DNA of 64,000 bases from Saururus chinensis (lineage: Eukaryota; Streptophyta; Magnoliopsida; Piperales; Saururaceae): assembly GCA_035235625.1 (NCBI GenBank), contig CP141142.1, positions 26,546,995 through 26,610,994 of the forward strand, given 5' to 3'. The position numbers were made by a program, and so were the translations under genes. The first letter of the stretch is position 1; each line of letters begins with the position of its first letter. Shown here piece by piece: positions 3,006 through 56,707 of the stretch. The notes under the pieces were generated by a model that saw nothing but the letters and a program-made list of their open reading frames with translations, searched no databases and was not told where the DNA came from.

Positions 3006-3419
3006 TTACGCGACAGGTCTGGCAGTTTCACGTTCCACTGCTTGCTTCAAGAAGCTGCCCTCTTCAAGCACCATCTGAACGGGCAAGAAGCCCAGCCCGT
3101 CCGCCATGGCCAGCAACATCTGCTTCATCTCTGCCCTGAACTCTTCGAGATCAACCTCCCCGCTGGAGTCGTGGTCGAACTGAGCAAAGAGGTCGTCATA
3201 GACCGGACGCAGCTCATCCGGCCTTACGGCCACGTCCAAACCGAAGTGCTTCTCCAAGACCCTGAGGCACCTGAGCTCGTTCATGAGCTCTGAATACGAC
3301 AACTGCCCGTCGTCGTTAGCGTCCAGCCGGTGGAAGAGGACATCCACCGATTTGTTGAAGACGCTGTCGTCCTCCACGAAGTTGCGGATGGTGGCACCGT
3401 CCAACACCTCCACGCTCAT
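3006..3419 (-). CDS. Small two-EF-hand calcium-binding protein, copy 1
   Basis: An intronless 137-residue protein starting MSVEVLDGATIRNFVEDD. It matches the plant family of small calcium-binding EF-hand proteins that begin this way. Two canonical 12-residue EF loops are visible: residues 33-44 (D-x-N-x-D-G...E) and 82-93 (D-x-D-x-S-G...E), each with the position-6 glycine and position-12 glutamate needed for Ca2+ binding. No signal peptide or membrane segment is seen, so it is probably a soluble Ca2+ sensor. The ATG at 3417-3419 is the only in-frame ATG at this end; the codons just upstream (TTG, TTG, AGG) are leader. A TATA box lies about 125 bp upstream. Compared with copy 2 it differs at six residues (V20, V27, H30, D76, T132, P135 here), none at a calcium-coordinating position. 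The specific partner is unknown. Confidence 0.88.
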   Translation of the reverse strand: MSVEVLDGATIRNFVEDDSVFNKSVDVLFHRLDANDDGQLSYSELMNELRCLRVLEKHFGLDVAVRPDELRPVYDDLFAQFDHDSSGEVDLEEFRAEMKQMLLAMADGLGFLPVQMVLEEGSFLKQAVERETARPVA

Positions 3420-3543
3420 CCTCAACAAATTGACAAGTACAACGGCGACGAGACAGACGCAGTGGGAAACTGAAGGAAACGAAAAAGCTCTGGTGCGATA
3501 TCTTTCTTTTCTTGGTGTAATGCGGTCGTATTCAAGGGGATTT

Positions 3544-3553
3544 GTATTTATAG
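3544..3553 (-). promoter_or_regulatory. TATA box of EF-hand gene 1
   Basis: CTATAAATAC on the minus strand, about 125 bp upstream of the ATG. The same box at the same distance occurs in copy 2 and, slightly further away, in copy 3. That conservation supports it as the core promoter. Confidence 0.75.
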
Positions 3554-3935
3554 CTGGAAGCTGCCACGGACCAAGTTTGTCATTTCAACCGACGCCGTAA
3601 TTTTCTATATTAGATACTGAAACCACATCGCCCAACCCACTTGAGAAGTCAAAAACTATTTCTCAAGTTCACAGACTATCTCCGAAGGAGCAACCGACCA
3701 AGTTGACTAAAGAATTCCAAACACGGGAGCAAATTTCCTCGCTTCTGTGCCTCTTTATTGCGGCCATCGTTTTCCTGTGGGCTGACCGTAACAGTCAGTC
3801 CGTAGACACGGAGAGGAAAGGCATCTTTTCTTCGTTGAACCTTAGGTTTTAGTAGGTTGGATGTGATTTGGGGGACACATATAAACGTGTTTTTACTATA
3901 ATTGTTTTATATATTTGGGAATGTTAGTTTTATAT

Positions 3936-13339: not shown

Positions 13340-13753
13340 TTACGCGACAACTCTGGCAGATTCACGTTCCACTGCTTGCTTCAAGAAGCTGCCCTCTTCA
13401 AGCACCATCTGAACGGGCAGGAAGCCCAGCCCGTCCGCCATGGCCAGCAACATCTGCTTCATCTCCGCCCTGAACTCTTCGAGATCCACCTCCCCGCTGG
13501 AGTCGTGGTCGAACTGAGCAAAGAGACCGTCATAGACCGGACGCAGCTCATCCGGCCTTACGGCCACGTCCAAGCCGAAGTGCTTCTCCAAGACCCTGAG
13601 GCACCTGAGCTCGTTCATGAGCTCTGAATACGACAACTGCCCGTCGTCGTTAGCGTCCAGCCGGCGGAAGAGGCCATCCACCGACTTGTTGAAGGCGCTG
13701 TCGTCCTCCACGAAGTTGCGGATGGTGGCACCGTCCAACACCTCCACGCTCAT
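13340..13753 (-). CDS. Small two-EF-hand calcium-binding protein, copy 2
   Basis: An intronless 137-residue protein, 131 of 137 residues identical to copy 1. Both EF loops (residues 33-44 and 82-93) keep every coordinating residue, so it should bind two Ca2+ ions. The ATG is at 13751-13753 with the same TTG-TTG-AGG leader as copy 1 and a TATA box 125 bp upstream. At the three positions where copies 1 and 2 differ and copy 3 can be compared (residues 20, 27 and 30), copy 3 agrees with this gene (A, G, R). Copy 2 therefore probably keeps the ancestral state. No signal peptide, membrane segment or break is visible. Function beyond calcium sensing is unknown. Confidence 0.9.
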   Translation of the reverse strand: MSVEVLDGATIRNFVEDDSAFNKSVDGLFRRLDANDDGQLSYSELMNELRCLRVLEKHFGLDVAVRPDELRPVYDGLFAQFDHDSSGEVDLEEFRAEMKQMLLAMADGLGFLPVQMVLEEGSFLKQAVERESARVVA

Positions 13754-13877
13754 CCTCAACAAATTAACAAGAACAACGGCGACGAGACAGACGAAGTGGG
13801 AAACTGAAGGAAACGAAGAAGCTCTGGTGCGATATCTTTTCTTTGTTGGTGTGATATGGTCGTATTCAAGGGGATTT

Positions 13878-13887
13878 GTATTTATAG
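13878..13887 (-). promoter_or_regulatory. TATA box of EF-hand gene 2
   Basis: CTATAAATAC on the minus strand at the same distance from the ATG as in copy 1. Confidence 0.75.
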
Positions 13888-14282
13888 ATGGAAGCTGTTA
13901 GAACTTGCCTGTAGCTTCCACGGACCAAGTTTGTCATTTCAACCGACATCGTAATTAATTTTCTATATTAGATACTGAAACCACATTGCCCAACCCACTT
14001 GAGAAGTCAAAAACTATTTCTCAAGTTCACAAACTATCTCCTAAGGAGCAACCGACCAAGTTGACAAAAGAATTCCAAAGACGGGAGCTTCCCTGTGCCT
14101 CTTTATTGCGAGCCTCATTTTCCTGTGGGCCGACCGTAACAGTCAGTTTGTAGACACGAAGAGGAAAGGCATTTTTTCTTGGTTGAACTTTACGTTTTAG
14201 TCGGTTGGATGTGTTTTGGGGGACAAATATATGTGTTTTTTACAATAATTGTTTTATATATTTGAGAATGTTAGTTTTATAT

Positions 14283-46255: not shown

Positions 46256-47990
46256 AGAAAATTAACCCTCATAATTAGATTTTCAAGAGATGTAGACTCA
46301 ACTTCAAGGGCAAAATGGTCTAAAAATAGTTCCAAACATTGTCCATTAACTTTAAAAATATTACTATTATTTGAGTTTTTAATTTTAATAGTTCCATAAG
46401 CAAAAATAGTTTTTACAATGAAAGGACCCGCTCAACGTGATCTTAATTTTCCTAAAAAGAGATGAAGCCTAGAGTTGTATAATAAAACTTTTTGAAATGG
46501 TTGAAAAGCTTTTCGTAAAATGTTTTTATCATGAAAAGCCTTCATTTTCTCTTTGTAAGTTTTTGAATTTTCATAAGCATAATGTTGAATTTCCTCTAAC
46601 TCATTAATTTGCAATTTTCTGTTTAAGCCAGCCTTGTCAAAGTTAAAATTCAAAGTTTTGATTGCCCAATATGCCCTATGTTTCAACTCCACTCGCAAGT
46701 GAAAAGCTTTTCTAAAAATCAAACGGTAAGGGGACATTCCAATTAGGGTCTTAAATGCGGTACGGTAAGCCCAAAGAGCATCGGTTAGCCGTAAAGACCA
46801 TTCTTTACCAATTGGATTTATTGTTTTCTGCAAAAATATATTTAATTTCCAGACTAAATTTCAACTTGTCCACTTGTTTGTGGGTGATAGGGGGTGGCTA
46901 CTTTATGGGCAATCGCATACTTCCTCATCAAAGTCTCAAAAGTCTTATTGCAAAAATGTGACCCCCTGTCACTTATGATGGCTTGAGGTGTTGCAAACCC
47001 TGAAAATATATTTTCTTTCAAAAAACGCATAAAGACTTTGTGGTCATTGGTTTTTCTTGGAACCGCCTCAATCCACTTTGAAACATAATCAATGACAACT
47101 AAAATATAAACATAGCCAAAAGAAGGAGGAAAAGGTCCCATGAAATCAATGCCCCAACAATCAAAAATTTCAATTACCAATATGGGGTTAAGAGGCATCA
47201 TATTTCGATGAGAGATAGCTCCTAATTTTTGACACCATTCACAAGTTTTGCAAAATTCATGAACATCTTTGAAAAGAGTTGGCCAATAAAAACTACATTG
47301 CAAAATTTTAGTTTTGGTCTTTTTAGAGGAGAAGTGCCCACCGAATGTTTCATAATGACAAAAAGAGATGATACTTATTTGTTCAAAATCAAGCACACAT
47401 ATCATTATTTGATCCAGACAATACTTAAAGAGATAGGGGTCCCAAAAAAATATTTTACCTTGGTGAATAATCTCTTTTTTTCTTTGTGAGAATAATAATG
47501 AGGAACTTTACCTATCACCAAGTAATTAGCAATGTTGTCAAAAGGTTGCTCATTGGCGAATGTGTCTTGAATTGTAATATTTTCCAAAGAATAAAAAAAT
47601 TCAAATCTTGAAAGATGATCCGCCACCATATTCTCTAATCCCTTCTTGTCTTTGATTGTGAGATCAAACTCTTAGAGTAGGAGTATCCACTGGAGCAATC
47701 TAGGCTTTTTATCTTGTTTGCTCAAAAGGTACTTTAAAGTTGTATGGTCAGTAAAAATGATAATCTGAGAGCCAATCAAATAGGATATAAATTTGTCAAG
47801 TGCAAATACTAAAGCAAGAAGTTCTTTTTCAGTGGTGGAGTAGTTCATTTGGGTACTATTCAAAGTTCTACTTGCGTAATTAATAATGCAAGGTTTCTTA
47901 TTTTTTCTTTGCCCTAAAACAACCCCAATGGCATAATTACTTACGTCACACATAATTTCAAAAGGAATTGTCCAATCATATCCCTTAATA
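46256..47990 (-). mobile_element. Athila/Tat-type Ty3/gypsy remnant: RNase H and integrase
   Basis: Minus-strand pieces, in order: end of reverse transcriptase/RNase H (DWTIPFEIMCDVSNYAIGVVLGQ, then TEKELLALVFALDKF, 47672-47985); the linker VADHLSR (near 47600); integrase with a zinc-binding segment ([11 protein letters not shown]), a catalytic core (WGIDFMGPF...ISDRGSHF) and the [12 protein letters not shown] stretch (46854-47405); and an integrase C-terminal region ([27 protein letters not shown], 46256-46833). The wording is typical of plant Athila/Tat elements. Gag, protease and most of the reverse transcriptase are absent. The element is broken, with several breaks in the part that remains. 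Confidence 0.85.
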
Positions 47991-48880: not shown

Positions 48881-50463
48881 GACAAAAGGGAAAAAGTAGA
48901 ATGTATAGAGTTTTACCTCATGTCAGTGAAAGAGGGGTGGGGAGGCTAGGACAGTGGTGTTCAAATGTCATCCTGGCCGGGGCTAAATTGCGGCAGTGGG
49001 CTGGAGGCCATTCTGCTGGCATCAACGGCAGATTGGGCAAAAATCGAAGAAGAGCTCACCAAGTCAAAATGGGAACAAAGGGGGAAAAGGGGCAGACAGC
49101 CAGTGGGTCAAGGCTAGGGTGGTGGTGGTGGTGTCACCACGCTGAGGTCGACAGGGTGGAAGGCTGCAGCCAGAGGTGGCGCCGCCACCAGCTTCACAAA
49201 CGGAACAGGCAGTCCCCTTCCTCTATTTTGCCCGCGGGTCAAGCGCATTGAGGCACACCTGATCCGTTTTTTTATATTTTTATATTTTTTTCGTTAAAGT
49301 GTTATAAAAATTGTCGATGGCTCCTTTCAAATAATTTTGAGTTTGATCTTCATCTTCTAACTGAGGGAGATGCCAGTATGAGATCCATTGCAGAAGTCCC
49401 AATTGGTGGCTGCATTGGTTGACCCCATAGTATAGTTGGCAATCTCATTCTTCGAGTTGAAGCAGGGAAGAAGGTGAGTGTTGGCACACCTAGTATTTAA
49501 TGTTGAGCTCAAAGAGGTGATCAACATGAATCTAGGAAAATTGAACAACTTTCTTATCGATCAAAGGAGAGAATAAGTCATCTGATGGGTCAGGTTAGGA
49601 GAGAGAAAGGAGTACCGCCAAGGCCTTCTCTTGATCAGTTTCCTTATCATTAAAGGGATTCACCCAAGGGCTTAGGTAAGAAAGGTTTCCCGGGGAGGAG
49701 GTCTCTGAGGAATACACTGAGGGGGAATTATTCCTATAACCACATTTGAAGCAGTCAGAAGGGACAATTAAAGTTGTCAGTAATAGGGCGACCTTTGGCC
49801 GTATTGTTAACAATTTAAAATTTTCAACTTGCTCAGGGAAGGAACTCAAAAGATGGCCACGTGGTGGGCCCACTTCTATTATGGATCTAAAAGAAAAAAG
49901 AGACACTCATCTAGGGTGGCCGCTAGCAAGGTATGATGGCTCGCACCCCTTTAACAGGACTAAGCTATCATCACTCCGAGGGCCCACAGGCAGGCCAGAA
50001 TAAGAGGCTCGAGCCCACCCTGGGTCAAAGCCCCGGGTTTCACCAAGCAAGGGCACTTTCCTTGTGTGGCCTTCTTTTGGAAACATCCACCTCTTAAGGT
50101 TTCTTCCTCCCACACCTGCCGCCACCCGGCCTTGCTCACTCTTGGGTTACTACGTCTGGATTAGGAACAAATGTGTGTGTTTCTGGCTCCTGCGTCTCCT
50201 AAAGGGCCTCCAAAGTTTGTCCGGTATAATATTGGTCAACCTTTGGGGTACCTTTCCTCTTGGCCGCTATTTGTACTTAGTCATCACATTCTTATTAGGA
50301 AGATTCCTAGGAAGAACCTAGTACTAGGAGAAGTTCGAACCTAGTACTAGGAGAAGTTCTGGATGCATCCTTTCATTAACAGAGATGGATTGGCTTCGGT
50401 TGACCTTCTTATTATCAGAATATTTGAAAAAGCTTTGATTCCAACAAGCTCGTGACGAGGTAG
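48881..50463. other. Unassigned, GC-richer block
   Basis: The segments 48900-49260 and 49600-50330 are clearly richer in G and C than their surroundings and carry several open frames on both strands (up to about 116 codons). None shows a domain that I recognise. A tandem pair of 22-bp units (GAACCTAGTACTAGGAGAAGTT) lies at about 50313-50357. It may be the interior of an unrecognised transposon. Confidence 0.4.
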
Positions 50464-51392
50464 CACTACAATAAGTTTAGCCATTTGTAATAAATTAATT
50501 TATCGTAAAAGATATTAATTTCATCGCAAAAGAAATTTTGTGACGAAAAAAAAATTCATCCCGTAATTGTTGCAAAAGGCTTGTCTTAAAAGGTTTTTGC
50601 AACAAAATTAATTTTGTCCTAAAAGGTATACATTTGCGACAATATTATTTGTCACAAAAGATAAATTTTTTTGTCACAAATTCCTATAATTATATTTGGA
50701 TAAACCCCAAAAAATTTTGTCACAAAAAAATAAATAATTAAAAAATAGTTTTCTATTTGGGACAAAATAAATTTATTGCAATTTTTTTTTTAGAATTATA
50801 AATTTGTAGTATTTGCAACAATAATTAATTATTCTAAAATGAGAACATATATTTGCCACAAATATATTTGTCCCAAAAACTACTTTTGATTTATTGTCTT
50901 TAGTTTTTGCGACAAATTGTTTTGTCCCAAAATATATGTGCAAGACTATTTGGGACAAAAAAAGTTCGTTGCAAAAGCATTTGAAATTTGAAAAATAAAA
51001 TTTCTTGTAAAAAATAAATTTAAAAAAATTAATAAAATTTCAAGTTAAACTTAAACTTAAATATTGCCACTTCCACAAAAAAGCTCAACATTGATATTAG
51101 ACTTATGGAATTCCCATATTTATATCAAACATATGCATTAGGGCAGGGCATAGGATATTAATTTAAGCTTACATTAACATTTTCTTTTTAGTTTCTTTCA
51201 AAATAAATGAAACAATTCCATCCCTGACTAGAGATGTAAATTTATAGTAAAATAGCCAAATTACAAATCATGTTACCTAAAAGGAAATAAAAGCTTCATC
51301 CAGACAAATCAAGAATATACACTTATATAAACTAAATTTGAAGAACCAATAAATGGATTTGGAAGGAGTAAATTGATATATAAAATTGAGTC

Positions 51393-51521
51393 CTATTGAA
51401 GTGCTTCTGCAATAACTTCCTGTTGTAGTGCTTCTGCAATAACTTCCTGTTGTAGTACTTATGCTAAGCCACGTAGTCCATATTTACTTGCTGAATAAGC
51501 TGTATAACCATAAATACCCAC
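51393..51521 (-). pseudogene. 3-ketodihydrosphingosine reductase (TSC10-type) exon fragment
   Basis: After a splice-acceptor-like CTTTTTTAG, the minus strand reads [20 protein letters not shown] and then VLQQEVIAEALQ. This closely matches the TSC10/KDSR segment [28 protein letters not shown], including the short-chain dehydrogenase Y-x-x-x-K catalytic motif. TSC10 reduces 3-ketodihydrosphingosine with NADPH in the endoplasmic reticulum for sphingolipid synthesis. Here only one exon is recognisable. It is broken by a stop after GLRGLA and by a perfect 27-bp tandem duplication (51408-51434 and 51435-51461) repeating EALQQEVIA. The NADPH-binding N-terminus and the C-terminal part are absent. It is a captured, dead fragment. 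Confidence 0.78.
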
Positions 51522-53070
51522 CTAAAAAAGCAAAGAAAATTGTTAAGAGGATAATTATATACATATATTATTAATAGAATAAAAGACAGAATTTTCGTGT
51601 CCTTAAAGAACCGTATATTATTGATGACTGTCCTTCCAGTAGAAATTGATGGGCGGTTACTCCAATACAATATGTTAAGGTATGTTTAGTGTGAACCTAG
51701 TCATGTACAATGTACCATTAGCTTGGAAGATGACAAGACATAGAAGAACTTTGCTAGAGAAAGCATTCTCAAAGATAAACATTCTTTCAAAATGAGTAAT
51801 GCATCATTGTAATTCTCTTCCAAAATGAGTGAGCTCAAAGAAATTGATTCATTGTTCACTTGTGCAAAAAAACCAGCGGCCATCACTTCTTGTTCCTCAC
51901 AACTGTTGTAGCAGTATCATATTGATACCAACGAAAAAAACAATATCCATATCGATGTGTTGTACTAACCCGAGCTAAAATGCCCATTAAATATGAGAGA
52001 CATTTGCTTGCCCTATGAAACTTTGTTGCATAGCAGTAGGAACCCTAAATGCTTAAAACTAATTAAGTTTCACTGATACTATTAACTTAAGTGTCCTGAT
52101 TTAAAAAGTAACTTATAGCCCAAATCATTTGCTACCAAATATGAGATATACCTGAAGAACAAAGATATGCAATGTTGAATCTCTTGCACTCCTTGTGTTC
52201 TGTATTAACCCACAGACAACAAGGAAACTTAGTCCATAAAATTATTTAAGCTAAATATGTTTTACCCAAACATACATCAAGAGGAAGGGAGACAACTAGA
52301 CAATAATGCTACAATATCTGGGTCCTTGCCACTCTCATCTATGCCTAAGTGCAGTTATCTGTAGTAAGTGACATTGATCCTATATCACCAATTGTCTTTA
52401 GCCATATTCAAAATGACTATAAAGAACCAGGTCAGGGTATACTGGCACGATTTCATGCAGTTATGCTGGATGTGCTTCTTGACGCAACCATCTCAAGGAA
52501 AAAAATAAGCAGATGAAGTTTCAGAAAAGCTCTTCTGAAGGACCAATAATCATGGTAATAAAAAAAGATAAAGGAGAAATGACTCATCGGGAGCCAAATC
52601 ACAAGATCATGTTTCCAGGAATATAATATGGGTTCAATATTACTAATTGATCGACATTGCACAAAACACACATCAAACTTCTTACATGCAATAAATCATA
52701 GAAGGTTTATGTACAGTCAATGTTAGAGATGAAAAGCACAATAATAAGTACAATGTTTAGAAGAAGAATGCCCTGCAACAGAAATTGCCACGTCAGCCAA
52801 AAATGGGCCACAGAAAGTAATGCAATCGGTGAAATGTAAGCAAAACTAGTTCAAGAAGAACTCTTATGACAGAAAGAGGCAAAAGCAGAAACACAAAATA
52901 TATCAGCCATACTGAACTTTCAATGTAAAATGGAAAAATCTATATCAAGGGTACTAGCAGGAAACTGGAAACAGAAAATAACACTGGTTTCATTTTTCAA
53001 ATATGGAAAAAAAATCAATTAATATATAAGATCTGGAAAAAAAATCTGTATGAACTTTGAAGCTCACGAC
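51522..53070. other. Captured or filler sequence between the two gene fragments
   Basis: AT-rich, intron-like sequence. A minus-strand frame at 51701-51900 reads EQEVMAAGFFAQVNNESISLSSLILEENYNDALLILKE; it looks like real coding but I cannot assign it. The catalytic exons of uracil-DNA glycosylase (DPYHGPGQA and later motifs) are not found here. Confidence 0.4.
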
Positions 53071-53750
53071 CTGCCCAATGATCACGACCTTTACTGGATG
53101 AAAGGGAGTTGAGTTAAGTGCATTGAAGATCAGAAACGGAGGTGGGTAAATCGGGGAACTGCCTTCCACCTCCCGTTCTACAAACCTACACAGATTCTTC
53201 GCATACGGCTTCTGAAGCTCCCCCGGCAGTATCTCCAGCCATATCTTCTCCACTAATAACTCCTCTAGCTTCACATAACCCGACCCTTCAGCTGCCAAAC
53301 ACCCACAAGAGAAAAAAAATTTGCAAATCAACGACCGATCATTGCCCAAGTGGATATTTGGATAAACTGATTTGATTCTTGCAGAGTGTCAAAGAGATGT
53401 CATTTTTACAAATATAAGGGGCCGGAAAGGAGCAAGGGAAAGGGTAATGAATAAGGAAAGCACGCATTCATATATACCTCGCGCCTGGGATACTCGTTCA
53501 GTGCAAATCCAAAGGTTCCGCCGTGCAATGGCGAGGGAGCGGTTGATCACGGCGCGCAGCTTCTGCTCCGGGATGGGGATCGAACCGGAATCCAACAGGG
53601 CGCCATCGGAGGAATGGCTTCCTCCATCGGAGGGAGGGGAACTGCAGAGGGAGGACACGGAGGGCTTGGAGGCCAATGCATTGGAGGAGCAGGGGAGGGG
53701 CTTCAGGCACTTGGCCGGCTGGAAGAGCTCGCCCAGGACCGGAATTGCAT
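53071..53750 (-). pseudogene. Uracil-DNA glycosylase (UNG) fragment, exons 1-2
   Basis: Exon 1 (53478-53750) reads AIPVLGELFQPAKCLKP...EQKLRAVINRSLAIARRNLWICTERVSQAR. Exon 2 (53071-53291) reads AEGSGYVKLEELLVEKIWLEILPGELQKPYAKNLCRFVERE...IYPPPFLIFNALNSTPFHPVKVVIIGQ. Together they match the N-terminal half of plant UNG, which excises uracil from DNA in base-excision repair; ELFQPAK corresponds to the N-terminal QPAKRLK segment. Intron 1 (53292-53477) has GT/AG borders and a phase-1 junction giving QAR-AEG. The fragment stops at IIGQ, just before the catalytic D-P-Y-H, followed by a GT donor. The only ATG at the expected start (53748-53750) is out of frame by one base, as if ATGGCA had become ATGCA. 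Otherwise exons 1 and 2 are open. No later exons were found. Confidence 0.87.
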
Positions 53751-53810
53751 GGTGAGAGGGGGGTGGGGAGGGGCGGAATTGTTTCAGCGGGAAAGAGTGA
53801 GGGGAGGGAG

Positions 53811-54745
53811 CAGGGTCGGCTCAACATATTTTGAGGCCATTCAAATGTGAATTATATATTTAATATATTAATATGGTTGGTGCCAAAAAAAAGTTTTAAT
53901 ATAATTAGTAAATAAAAAATAGTCATCATTCAATTATTAACCTCAACTTAAGCTTCTTGTGTACTTTTTTATTACTTGTAAAAAATTTATCAAGAGCTCT
54001 ATTTTTAAATTATATTGATTTATCAATTATTTCTAATGTACTTAATATTCTGATTCAAATTATTCATTAAACTTATTTATTATTATTAAAATATATATAA
54101 CCAAATGAAGAACCTTGACAATGAAAAAGTATACTTAGAAATAAAAATAATATAAAAATTAAAAAAAATTAATATATAAATATGCATCATAGTACATTGT
54201 GCCCACAACAGTTAATCAGGTTATTGAAAATCCGTTTGCCTCATTTTTATGTGGATTGTTTTATCCAAACAATGTAGACAAAAAGTATATAGGCTTTGTG
54301 TTGAGCACATATGAATGAGATTTAAATAGAATTCTAAATATTATAGAATTATATAATTTGGTAGATTGACACTTTATCTTTGATAATTAAAAGAAATAAG
54401 AGAAGAACAATTGAGTAATTCCTACAAAGAGGAAAGGTGCACTTGAGTTGGGTTTGGGTGTAGTACATACTAAGGGTAAAATGATAACCATTATGTTAAA
54501 TGGTAATTATAATTTTACTTAAATTTATAAAAAAATAATATAAACAAGCCCATGTAAGTGGTAATTTCTGGTAATCAAGAAGCCCACTCAATAGGCCTTT
54601 ATCATTATCTCAAATATAAATATTAGGGGCTTTGCATCTTGCATCTTTTATTTTCTCCTTCTCATAAGAGACCACAATATGGGGCCTTGTCTTTTGATGA
54701 GGCCTTAGGCAATTGCCTAAGTGGCCTAAGCCTAAAGCCGGCCCT
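53811..54745. mobile_element. hAT-type non-autonomous transposon
   Basis: The ends CAGGGTCGGCT and AGCCGGCCCTG form an inverted repeat of the hAT CAGGG class. The flanks GGAGGGAG and AGAGGGAG are an 8-bp target duplication with one mismatch. The 935-bp AT-rich interior has no transposase. A perfect 16-bp palindrome, TTAGGCAATTGCCTAA, lies at 54705-54720. It inserted about 60 bp upstream of the UNG start inside CACTA 2, so it is younger than the capture or came along with the donor gene. Confidence 0.85.
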
Positions 54746-54753
54746 GAGAGGGA

Positions 54754-55198
54754 GAGGAAAAGGTGGGATCATCAGCAACGACCTTAATTGACCTGTTGAT
54801 AAATTTATAGAGATGGTCATCATAGAGTGACCATCGCTAATAAGAGTTTATTAGCAATGGTTGTTCGAGTTGGCAAATGCAGATCAAATTTTCTACAACG
54901 GTCTTTGCTAGTTGTTTAAGTATTCATTTTTGTAATTAGTGTAAAAAACTATTTTACACTAGAGTATTATCAAATTTTGCACTCTCACTTGAAGTGTGAT
55001 CATTTGTAAATCATCAAATGCATAAATAAATGAGAGAAATAGGCAAATAACTTGAAAATATTACATTGTATATTAAATTATATATATAACATTATATAAT
55101 TATTTATCATTTCATAAATATTAATCATTTGTTAAACATCACATATTGTATGGAAAATATTAATCAATCAATTTATGTATTTATATTTTTAACACAAT

Positions 55199-55200
<2 letters not shown>
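54754..55200. other. Spacer with TTAGCAATGG-type short repeats
   Basis: 54775-54925 contains GACCATCGCTAATAA and TTAGCAATGG motifs resembling those at 24600-24690, perhaps a small CACTA fragment. The rest is AT-rich with nothing recognised. Confidence 0.4.

Positions 55201-55202
<2 letters not shown>

Positions 55203-55274
<72 letters not shown>
55203..55274. repeat. (TA)n microsatellite
   Basis: An uninterrupted TA run of about 72 bp inside CACTA 2. A CA/CG-rich dinucleotide patch follows at 55316-55355. Confidence 0.97.
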
Positions 55275-55275
<1 letters not shown>

Positions 55276-56558
55276 CTTATTATATCCTAAATATGGTATA
55301 TGGTTCTACATAACAAACACACACACGCGCATGCACACGTGCACACACACATACACATATATAACTATTATATAATTTTAAAAAATATATAAAAGTTTTG
55401 ATTTTTTTTAAAATACTACCAACAATGTGTATGGAAATTTATTGAAAATAAGCATAATAAAGTCTTGAAAAATATATACATACATAATATTTTTATATTT
55501 TGTTAATATAGTGAGAAACCTATTTGAAAAAATTATTATTAACATTAACTATTTTTTATTTTAACAATAAAAATTTGAAAAACTATTTGCTATGATTTTT
55601 AAAATTAGTTGTAAATAAATCCTATTTGCCACAAACTAGCCAACTTGTTACAAAAGGTGTATATTTTTTGCTAGAAATTTCTTAATTTCTCTCAAATAGA
55701 TAGTTAGATTGTTTTACCATTTTTTTTCTTTCAAATAAAATAAAATGGTTCCCATTTGGGACACATTTTGAATTTCGTTACAACAATCGATACTATTTGC
55801 CACAAAACTAGTTATCATCTCAAATAATTAGATAGTATATGCGACAATTTAAATTTGTTGTTTCAAATACTCTCTTATTGTTTCAAAGTATATCCTTTTG
55901 GGACGAATTTCAAAATTCATCCCAAAATATAACTTTTAGGGACAAATACTCATTTTTGGGAAAACGTTTATTTGTAGAGCTTTTGCAATGACTACTTAAA
56001 GTTGTTGCAAAAAAAATTGAAAAAAAATATTACTAGAAAAATATTAATGAAAAATTATTTGGGACAAATTGGAATTTTATTGCTAAAAACTTACACCTTT
56101 TGCAACAAAATGAATATTTGTTGCAAACAAACTTGACATTTTGCAATGAAATCTTATTTGTTGCAAAAAGTGGGTTGTATTTGCAACAAAGTGGAAAATG
56201 CATCCCAAAAAAGTAAGTTTTAGCCACAAACAAACCCATTTGTCACAAAAAACCTCACATTTTGTAAGTGTATAGAATTTTTGCAATAAATTCCTAAATT
56301 GTCCCAAAAGGCATACTATTAGTGACAAAATCTTGTTTGTTGCAAAAAAATTTATTCTAAAAGGGTTTTTTTGTTGTATTGTAGTTGGGAATAAAATGAA
56401 TAAGAGCTCTAAGATCAGCTGCTATTGGACTTCTATCATATCATATCATATCATATCATTTGTGTCTCTGTTATAATACTGCAATTATAAATGGTTTGAA
56501 TTGAATAAAACTTAGAAATAAATTAGAAATATTTTAAGGCTATACACCTAATTTTTCT

Positions 56559-56632
56559 GCGATTGTAGTTCAATCGGTCAGAGCACTGCCATGTCAAGGC
56601 AGAAGTTGCGGGTTCGAGCCATGTCAATCATG
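56559..56632 (+). tRNA. Organelle-type trnD-GUC relic
   Basis: A 74-nt cloverleaf-like segment close to plastid trnD-GUC as I remember it (about 11 differences). The anticodon arm CTGCC-ATGTCAA-GGCAG is perfectly paired with anticodon GTC, and the T arm keeps GGGTTCGAGCC. The acceptor stem is damaged (one C-A mismatch, one G-T pair) and the T stem has one mismatch. The flanks do not look like plastid DNA. It is most likely a very short plastid- or mitochondrion-derived insertion and probably not functional as a nuclear tRNA. Confidence 0.72.
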
Positions 56633-56707
56633 ACATGCGCTGGCAAGTTTAGCAGAAGCCTTGACTCTTGGTCCAAACCAATCCATGCAAATAAGAGTAG
56701 AAGAATG

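Follow-up and report, generated by a model that had tools for sequence, protein, structure and literature searches.

RESULTS

A complete CACTA element with pieces of three host genes

The 64,000-nucleotide stretch of Saururus chinensis DNA analyzed here (C3:26546995-26610994, referred to as the window) contains a complete, nonautonomous CACTA element at positions 50464 to 56381. Between its ends the element carries, on the minus strand, pieces of UNG, of a choline kinase gene, and of TSC10, together with a nested hAT-like element and a remnant of a CACTA element of another family. We refer to the family that provides the outer ends as A and to the family of the remnant as B. The initial annotation of this DNA had described a CACTA element with UNG exons 1 and 2 and a TSC10 exon on the minus strand, with introns retained; the ends and the alignments to the donor genes bear this out, but the choline kinase piece, the hAT-like element, and the B-family remnant had been missed. 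From a comparison with the whole genome (516 Mb in 11 contigs; loci found elsewhere carry L numbers), we consider that the element is probably a composite Pack-CACTA, with a cargo that was built in the B family, was taken over by A and spread, and yields no working protein. The features are as follows, with the evidence in brackets.

50461..50463, no strand: left target site duplication TAG (single TAG at the empty paralogous site)
50464..56381, +: whole CACTA element, A type, 5918 bp (ends, sister copies, empty site)
50464..51393, +: A-type 5' end, subterminal repeats and then A interior (copy comparison, repeat counts)
51391..51619, -: TSC10 piece, end of intron 1 and start of exon 2 (L045 on C6)
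51620..51925, -: stretch of unassigned origin (parts recur elsewhere in the genome, 77-93% identity over short pieces)
51926..52323, -: choline kinase intron piece and edge of an exon (90% to L032 on C10; Pfam match of the donor exons)
52322..53068, -: UNG intron 4 (part), exon 4 (~52741-52772), and intron 3 (part) (88.4% over 750 bp to native L019)
53068..53069, -: deletion point, 1199 nt of UNG gone in the window copy (comparison with copies and native gene)
53071..53291, -: UNG exon 2, open, splice sites retained (alignment, reading of open frames)
53478..53737, -: UNG exon 1 from about codon 6, open, without ATG (alignment, reading of open frames)
53738..53810, -: sequence upstream of the UNG breakpoint (common to the captured copies compared, unmatched in the native gene)
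53811..54746, +: nested hAT-like element (imperfect 8-bp duplication GGAGGGAG / AGAGGGAG)
~54755..54905, +: remnant of a B-type CACTA 3' subterminal region (likeness to L018 and L017)
54931..56381, +: A-type 3' part, subterminal repeats, terminus GTTGTATTG (copy comparison, repeat counts)
56382..56384, no strand: right target site duplication TAG (matches the TAG preceding 50464)

The element begins at 50464 with CACTACAATAAG and ends with GTTGTATTG, one base off the GTTGTAGTG of its sisters. Its terminal inverted repeats follow the CACTA...TAGTG scheme with a single substitution (TATTG) at the 3' end, where sister copies such as L009, L014, and L015 have an exact TAGTG. The previously assigned start was right and the end, 56385, was 4 bp too far: an element ending at 56381 is flanked by TAG on both sides, and one ending at 56385 has no matching duplication. 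A search with the two flanks joined (400 positions) identified an empty paralogous site 93 kb away on the same chromosome, where the sequence continues across the insertion point with one TAG and lacks the element; it is 83% alike over query positions 74-385 and has an 8-bp difference directly before the TAG. Because the sister copies share both ends and the empty site has one TAG, the two ends are those of a single element.

Arrays of short subterminal repeats, another hallmark of CACTA elements, are confined to the two ends. Words of the TTTGCGACAAA kind occur 14 times in 50464-51000 and 15 times in 55601-56381, with none in the middle; the means of 300 first-order Markov simulations per stretch were 0.24 and 0.20 for the ends and 0.41 for the middle. 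The A interior at 50464-51279 and 51319-51393 is common to A elements that lack UNG, and the A-type 3' part includes an (AT)n tract at 55202-55274. None of the 18 stop-to-stop open reading frames (ORFs) of at least 60 amino acids in the element matched a Pfam family at E <= 0.01. Hence, no transposase domain was detected, although older, interrupted coding remnants could be missed. Short window pieces likewise gave no Pfam match over the cutoff.

Donors of the cargo

The intact UNG gene is L019 on C11. A UNG family search gave 17 matches, each covering a single exon or a group of exons, and among these places L019 alone has a C-terminal exon. From about codon 6, within exon 1, the captured piece extends in sister copies through exon 4 and into intron 4. 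The window copy is 91.9% identical to the native gene over 669 bp and 88.4% over 750 bp. Its 1199-nt deletion begins at the start of intron 2, ends within intron 3, and removes the catalytic exon 3 with the GQDPYHG motif; exons 1 and 2 had been annotated correctly, and to them exon 4 and portions of introns 3 and 4 have to be added. Introns came along with the exons, in keeping with the DNA-level capture that had been proposed. The breakpoint at native positions 3568-3571 is common to all compared copies except L020, which does not reach it. The sequence upstream of codon 6 is shared by the captured copies, including the UNG relic L049, and has no match in L019 upstream of 3571; it may be filler joined at the capture or an older UNG 5' end that the native gene has since exchanged for another. 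We also considered and rejected a separate gene at C3:8327684 as its origin, since that locus turned out to be a further UNG relic preceded by this same sequence.

The choline kinase piece (398 bp) was supplied by an intron of the C10 gene L032, whose product, as a peptide joined from its exons, matches Pfam Choline_kinase (E = 1.1e-36). Its join to UNG falls in two bases, GT, common to both donors. The TSC10 piece is 96.3% identical to L045 on C6 over 187 bp (51433-51619), and its exon part contains an in-frame stop. A 27-bp tandem repeat (2.7 copies) occupies 51391-51464 of this exon part and is not seen in L012, L018, or the donor. L012 holds a longer TSC10 piece of 564 bp, reaching exon 3, and a third relative on C2 is 84% alike. 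C6 is a probable but not certain donor because, at positions where it differs from its C11 paralogue, the window sides with C6 by 7:0 and L018 by 7:1, and L012, over its longer stretch, by only 10:8. Judged by these alignments, the similarity of the UNG and TSC10 pieces to their donors is not chance. The element thus has the host gene pieces of a Pack-CACTA, with donors elsewhere in the genome (UNG on C11, choline kinase on C10, TSC10 probably on C6); the intact UNG and TSC10 loci, which the initial annotation had suggested looking for, are among them.

Copies of the cargo and of the A family

The UNG exon 1-2 stretch is present in 11 places, one of which is the native gene. A locus at C7:17.87 Mb carries the exon 3-4 part, and L049 (C3:8.327 Mb) is a further relic; at least 12 nonnative places contain UNG pieces, all of these counts being lower bounds. 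The same ends with the same cargo recur on several chromosomes, as anticipated for a captured block, and the element belongs to a multicopy group with common ends. Seven cargo elements have both ends, and the 3-bp duplications match in five of them (the window, L009, L014, L015, and L011/L012 joined). In L016 only the 5' end was found, and in L020 neither end. L012 together with L011 (C3:40805996-40821866) makes up a 15.9-kb element with GTA duplications and the longest TSC10 piece; its 5' end is diverged and consists of tandem repeats, and about 7 kb of additional DNA lie close to where its hAT copy begins.

With <=3 mismatches allowed, the genome has the A 5' terminus at 37 sites and the reversed pattern at none. 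Three A elements without UNG, L022 (C10:20.27 Mb), L025 (C3:5.07 Mb), and L026 (C7:17.25 Mb), have target duplications CCA, TTT, and TGT, respectively, and contain aspartyl-tRNA-synthetase-like pieces in place of UNG. Pfam identified GAD in an L022 ORF (E = 5e-8) and tRNA-synt_2 in an L026 ORF (E = 2e-13), and L025 has an ORF resembling the GAD-matching one of L022. By these matches, the pieces represent a second capture by the A family. The three elements were also considered as autonomous members; among the five ORFs run through Pfam, two were aspartyl-tRNA-synthetase-like and three had no match.

A nested element and a B-family remnant beside the cargo

The nested piece at 53811-54746 has matching inverted ends (CAGGGTCGGC / GCCGGCCCTG), which we take to be of the hAT type, and its 8-bp duplications are identical at 7 of 8 positions. 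It lies at the identical place in the window, L009, L010, L011/L012, L013, L014, and L015. L016 has just the start of this piece, L020 stops short of the place, and neither L017 nor L018 carries the piece.

Next to the cargo, A copies retain about 100 bp of B-type terminal repeats. The window sequence at 54757-54860 is 83.2% identical to L018 over 107 columns and 77.5% to L017 over 102. This remnant was aligned in the window, L009, and L014 and was also matched in L010, L011, L013, and L015.

L018 and L017 carry the cargo in a B-type setting. The 5' end of L018, CACTACAATAAAATTGGGC, and its subterminal repeats, like GCGACGGC, are of a kind that differs from A: B has GCGACGG-type subterminal repeats, and A has those of the TTTGCGACAAA type. 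The cargo of L018 comes in the same order as in the window (UNG, choline kinase, the stretch corresponding to 51620-51925, TSC10), and in L017 UNG adjoins a B-type 3' end. No A-type repeat word was found inside either carrier. The B 5' pattern, of which one version was tried, occurs at 4 sites, and its control at none.

With the native gene as root and L049 excluded, a partitioned tree of the UNG region places nine A-type copies in one clade (Shimodaira-Hasegawa-like approximate likelihood ratio test [SH-aLRT], 99.6; ultrafast bootstrap, 100), with L018 and L017 outside; L020 is counted as A from about 200 bp of A sequence only. An earlier tree with a poorly aligned window row also gives the A clade full bootstrap support. 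L017 follows native UNG for 85 nt beyond the choline kinase junction of the other copies, and UNG was therefore probably captured before choline kinase.

Coding capacity

As previously noted, UNG exons 1 and 2 are almost fully open in the window copy; yet no ATG occurs in the UNG frame between the stop upstream and the end of exon 2, and the TSC10 exon is interrupted by a stop. A functional UNG would require a start codon and the catalytic GQDPYHG exon, and the element has neither. In the 10 copies that have this part, divergence from native UNG is 0.062-0.084 for exons 1-2 and 0.068-0.106 for intron 1. The exons are slightly less diverged in 9 of the 10, a difference that would also arise if only the native gene were under constraint. 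Because exons and intron have diverged similarly and the UNG frame lacks an ATG, a working protein from this element seems unlikely. Chimeric transcripts are possible, since the splice sites of exons 1 and 2 are kept.

Surroundings of the element

Sequences related to the flanks of the element lie less than 100 kb away on this chromosome. A predicted tRNA-Asp (GTC) gene at 56558-56634 lies a short way beyond the element; it resembles plastid trnD and may, we presume, be inserted plastid DNA. Retrotransposon integrase ORFs lie at 46432-47507, with Pfam rve and Integrase_H2C2 on 46854-47507. Two near-identical ORFs for EF-hand proteins, at 3006-3584 (Pfam EF-hand) and 13340-13897, suggest a local tandem duplication.

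DISCUSSION

The window element carries captured UNG and TSC10 pieces, as the initial annotation had it; this very element was probably not the captor, the cargo having seemingly been assembled in another CACTA family first. We think it likely that the pieces were put together stepwise in one CACTA family, which passed them, with part of its terminal repeats, to a second family with different ends that spread them; a cargo can in this way outlive its first carrier. A B-family element would have picked up a stretch of UNG DNA (exons 1 to 4 with introns), and the B lineage would later have gained the choline kinase intron piece and the TSC10 intron/exon piece. The B body and part of its 3' terminal repeats, without its own ends, would then have come to lie inside an A-family element, either by nested insertion or by fusion of neighboring elements; the data do not separate these two routes. 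We infer that the composite was moved by the transposase of another element (mobilization in trans). The hAT-like element would have inserted into the composite before it spread, and the copies would subsequently have lost different internal stretches. UNG exon 3 is gone from the window copy, which landed at a TAG and is most likely passenger DNA without a working protein.

Several observations weigh against this history. The B carriers are incomplete, as the 3' end of L018 and the 5' end of L017 were not found, and L018 has lost the UNG/choline kinase junction through a deletion. Only a very short branch divides native UNG from L018 and L017, and the tree does not settle the order of these two (44.5/75). 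Within the A copies, the duplications of L010 and L013 do not match, the 5' end of L011/L012 is just about 70% like other A ends, and the nearly even TSC10 count of L012 blurs the assignment to C6.

Could the A family have captured the three pieces directly, with the B carriers obtaining them later from A or independently? A is clearly prolific, since its UNG-less members bear aspartyl-tRNA-synthetase-like pieces and its 5' terminus is found at 37 sites versus 4 for the B pattern. However, L018 and L017 fall outside the A clade, the A copies have a B remnant beside the cargo and the B carriers contain no A repeat word, and the UNG breakpoint common to all copies that reach it makes independent captures unlikely. 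We regard direct capture by A as unlikely, though the most plausible of the alternatives. Less probable still is the view that a host segment, duplicated long ago, already combined pieces of UNG, choline kinase, and TSC10, and that different CACTA elements inserted around or into it without capturing anything. The sequence before UNG codon 6, which differs between the copies and the native gene, would fit such a segment, as would the relic L049, which has that sequence ahead of its UNG part and of whose surroundings only 511 bases were read. Against it, the elements that enclose the cargo at many places each have target duplications, the choline kinase join is absent from L017, and, except for the donors, no copy was found among normal gene neighbors.

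Two further explanations have very little in their favor. The UNG piece could be an expressed and selected product, for example a truncated UNG regulator, and the open exons with their splice sites and the slightly lower exon divergence would be consistent with this; but the frame has no ATG, the catalytic exon is missing, and the small exon-intron difference is partly expected from constraint on the native gene, and from its sequence we would assign such a role only a very small chance. That the two ends come from different elements, with the fragments between them by coincidence, is the least credible of all: the 3' end is one base off TAGTG and an end at 56385 gives no matching duplication, but the matching duplications at 56381, the sisters with both ends, and the empty site refute it. 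We favor the relay from B to A.

Capture of gene pieces by CACTA elements, including pieces of several genes, is known. Two unrelated genes in one element are not as unusual as had been thought: by the description in PMC1947982, five unrelated genes have contributed pieces to Tgm-Express1, a CACTA element of 5.7 kb in the soybean wp allele. The window element resembles it in being nonautonomous, in its similar size, and in its intronic and exonic pieces of several unrelated genes. However, as described there, Tgm-Express1 is a single insertion with demonstrated chimeric splicing, whereas the present element belongs to a multicopy family known here from genome sequence alone; unlike in that description, donors, seemingly earlier carriers, and the remnant of a second CACTA family are present here (PMC1947982). 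According to the relevant parts of PMC8903248, maize Pack-CACTA elements with pieces from several loci have been reported. Pack-TYPE elements of Arabidopsis, rice, and maize are likewise described as nonautonomous elements with terminal inverted repeats and gene pieces that often come from multiple loci, and fusion of neighboring elements after loss of internal ends is a proposed route of DNA gain (PMC8903248, PMC13317346). The fusion examples given stay within one cluster (PMC8903248), whereas the inner remnant and outer ends here differ in their subterminal repeats. CACTA elements of Chenopodium also contain captured gene fragments, but the ones described lie upstream of transposase domains in coding elements (PMC8978399), and the window element has no such domain. 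The portions of the literature considered contain no account of cargo passing between CACTA families, though one may exist elsewhere. What is unusual in our finding is the relay.

The steps of gene capture are rarely visible. Here, a single genome has the donors, seemingly earlier carriers, the hand-over, and the later decay, so that shared breakpoints and a tree can show in which order these took place. If the relay is true, a captured block need not stem from its present carrier, which matters when capture is counted by end sequences.

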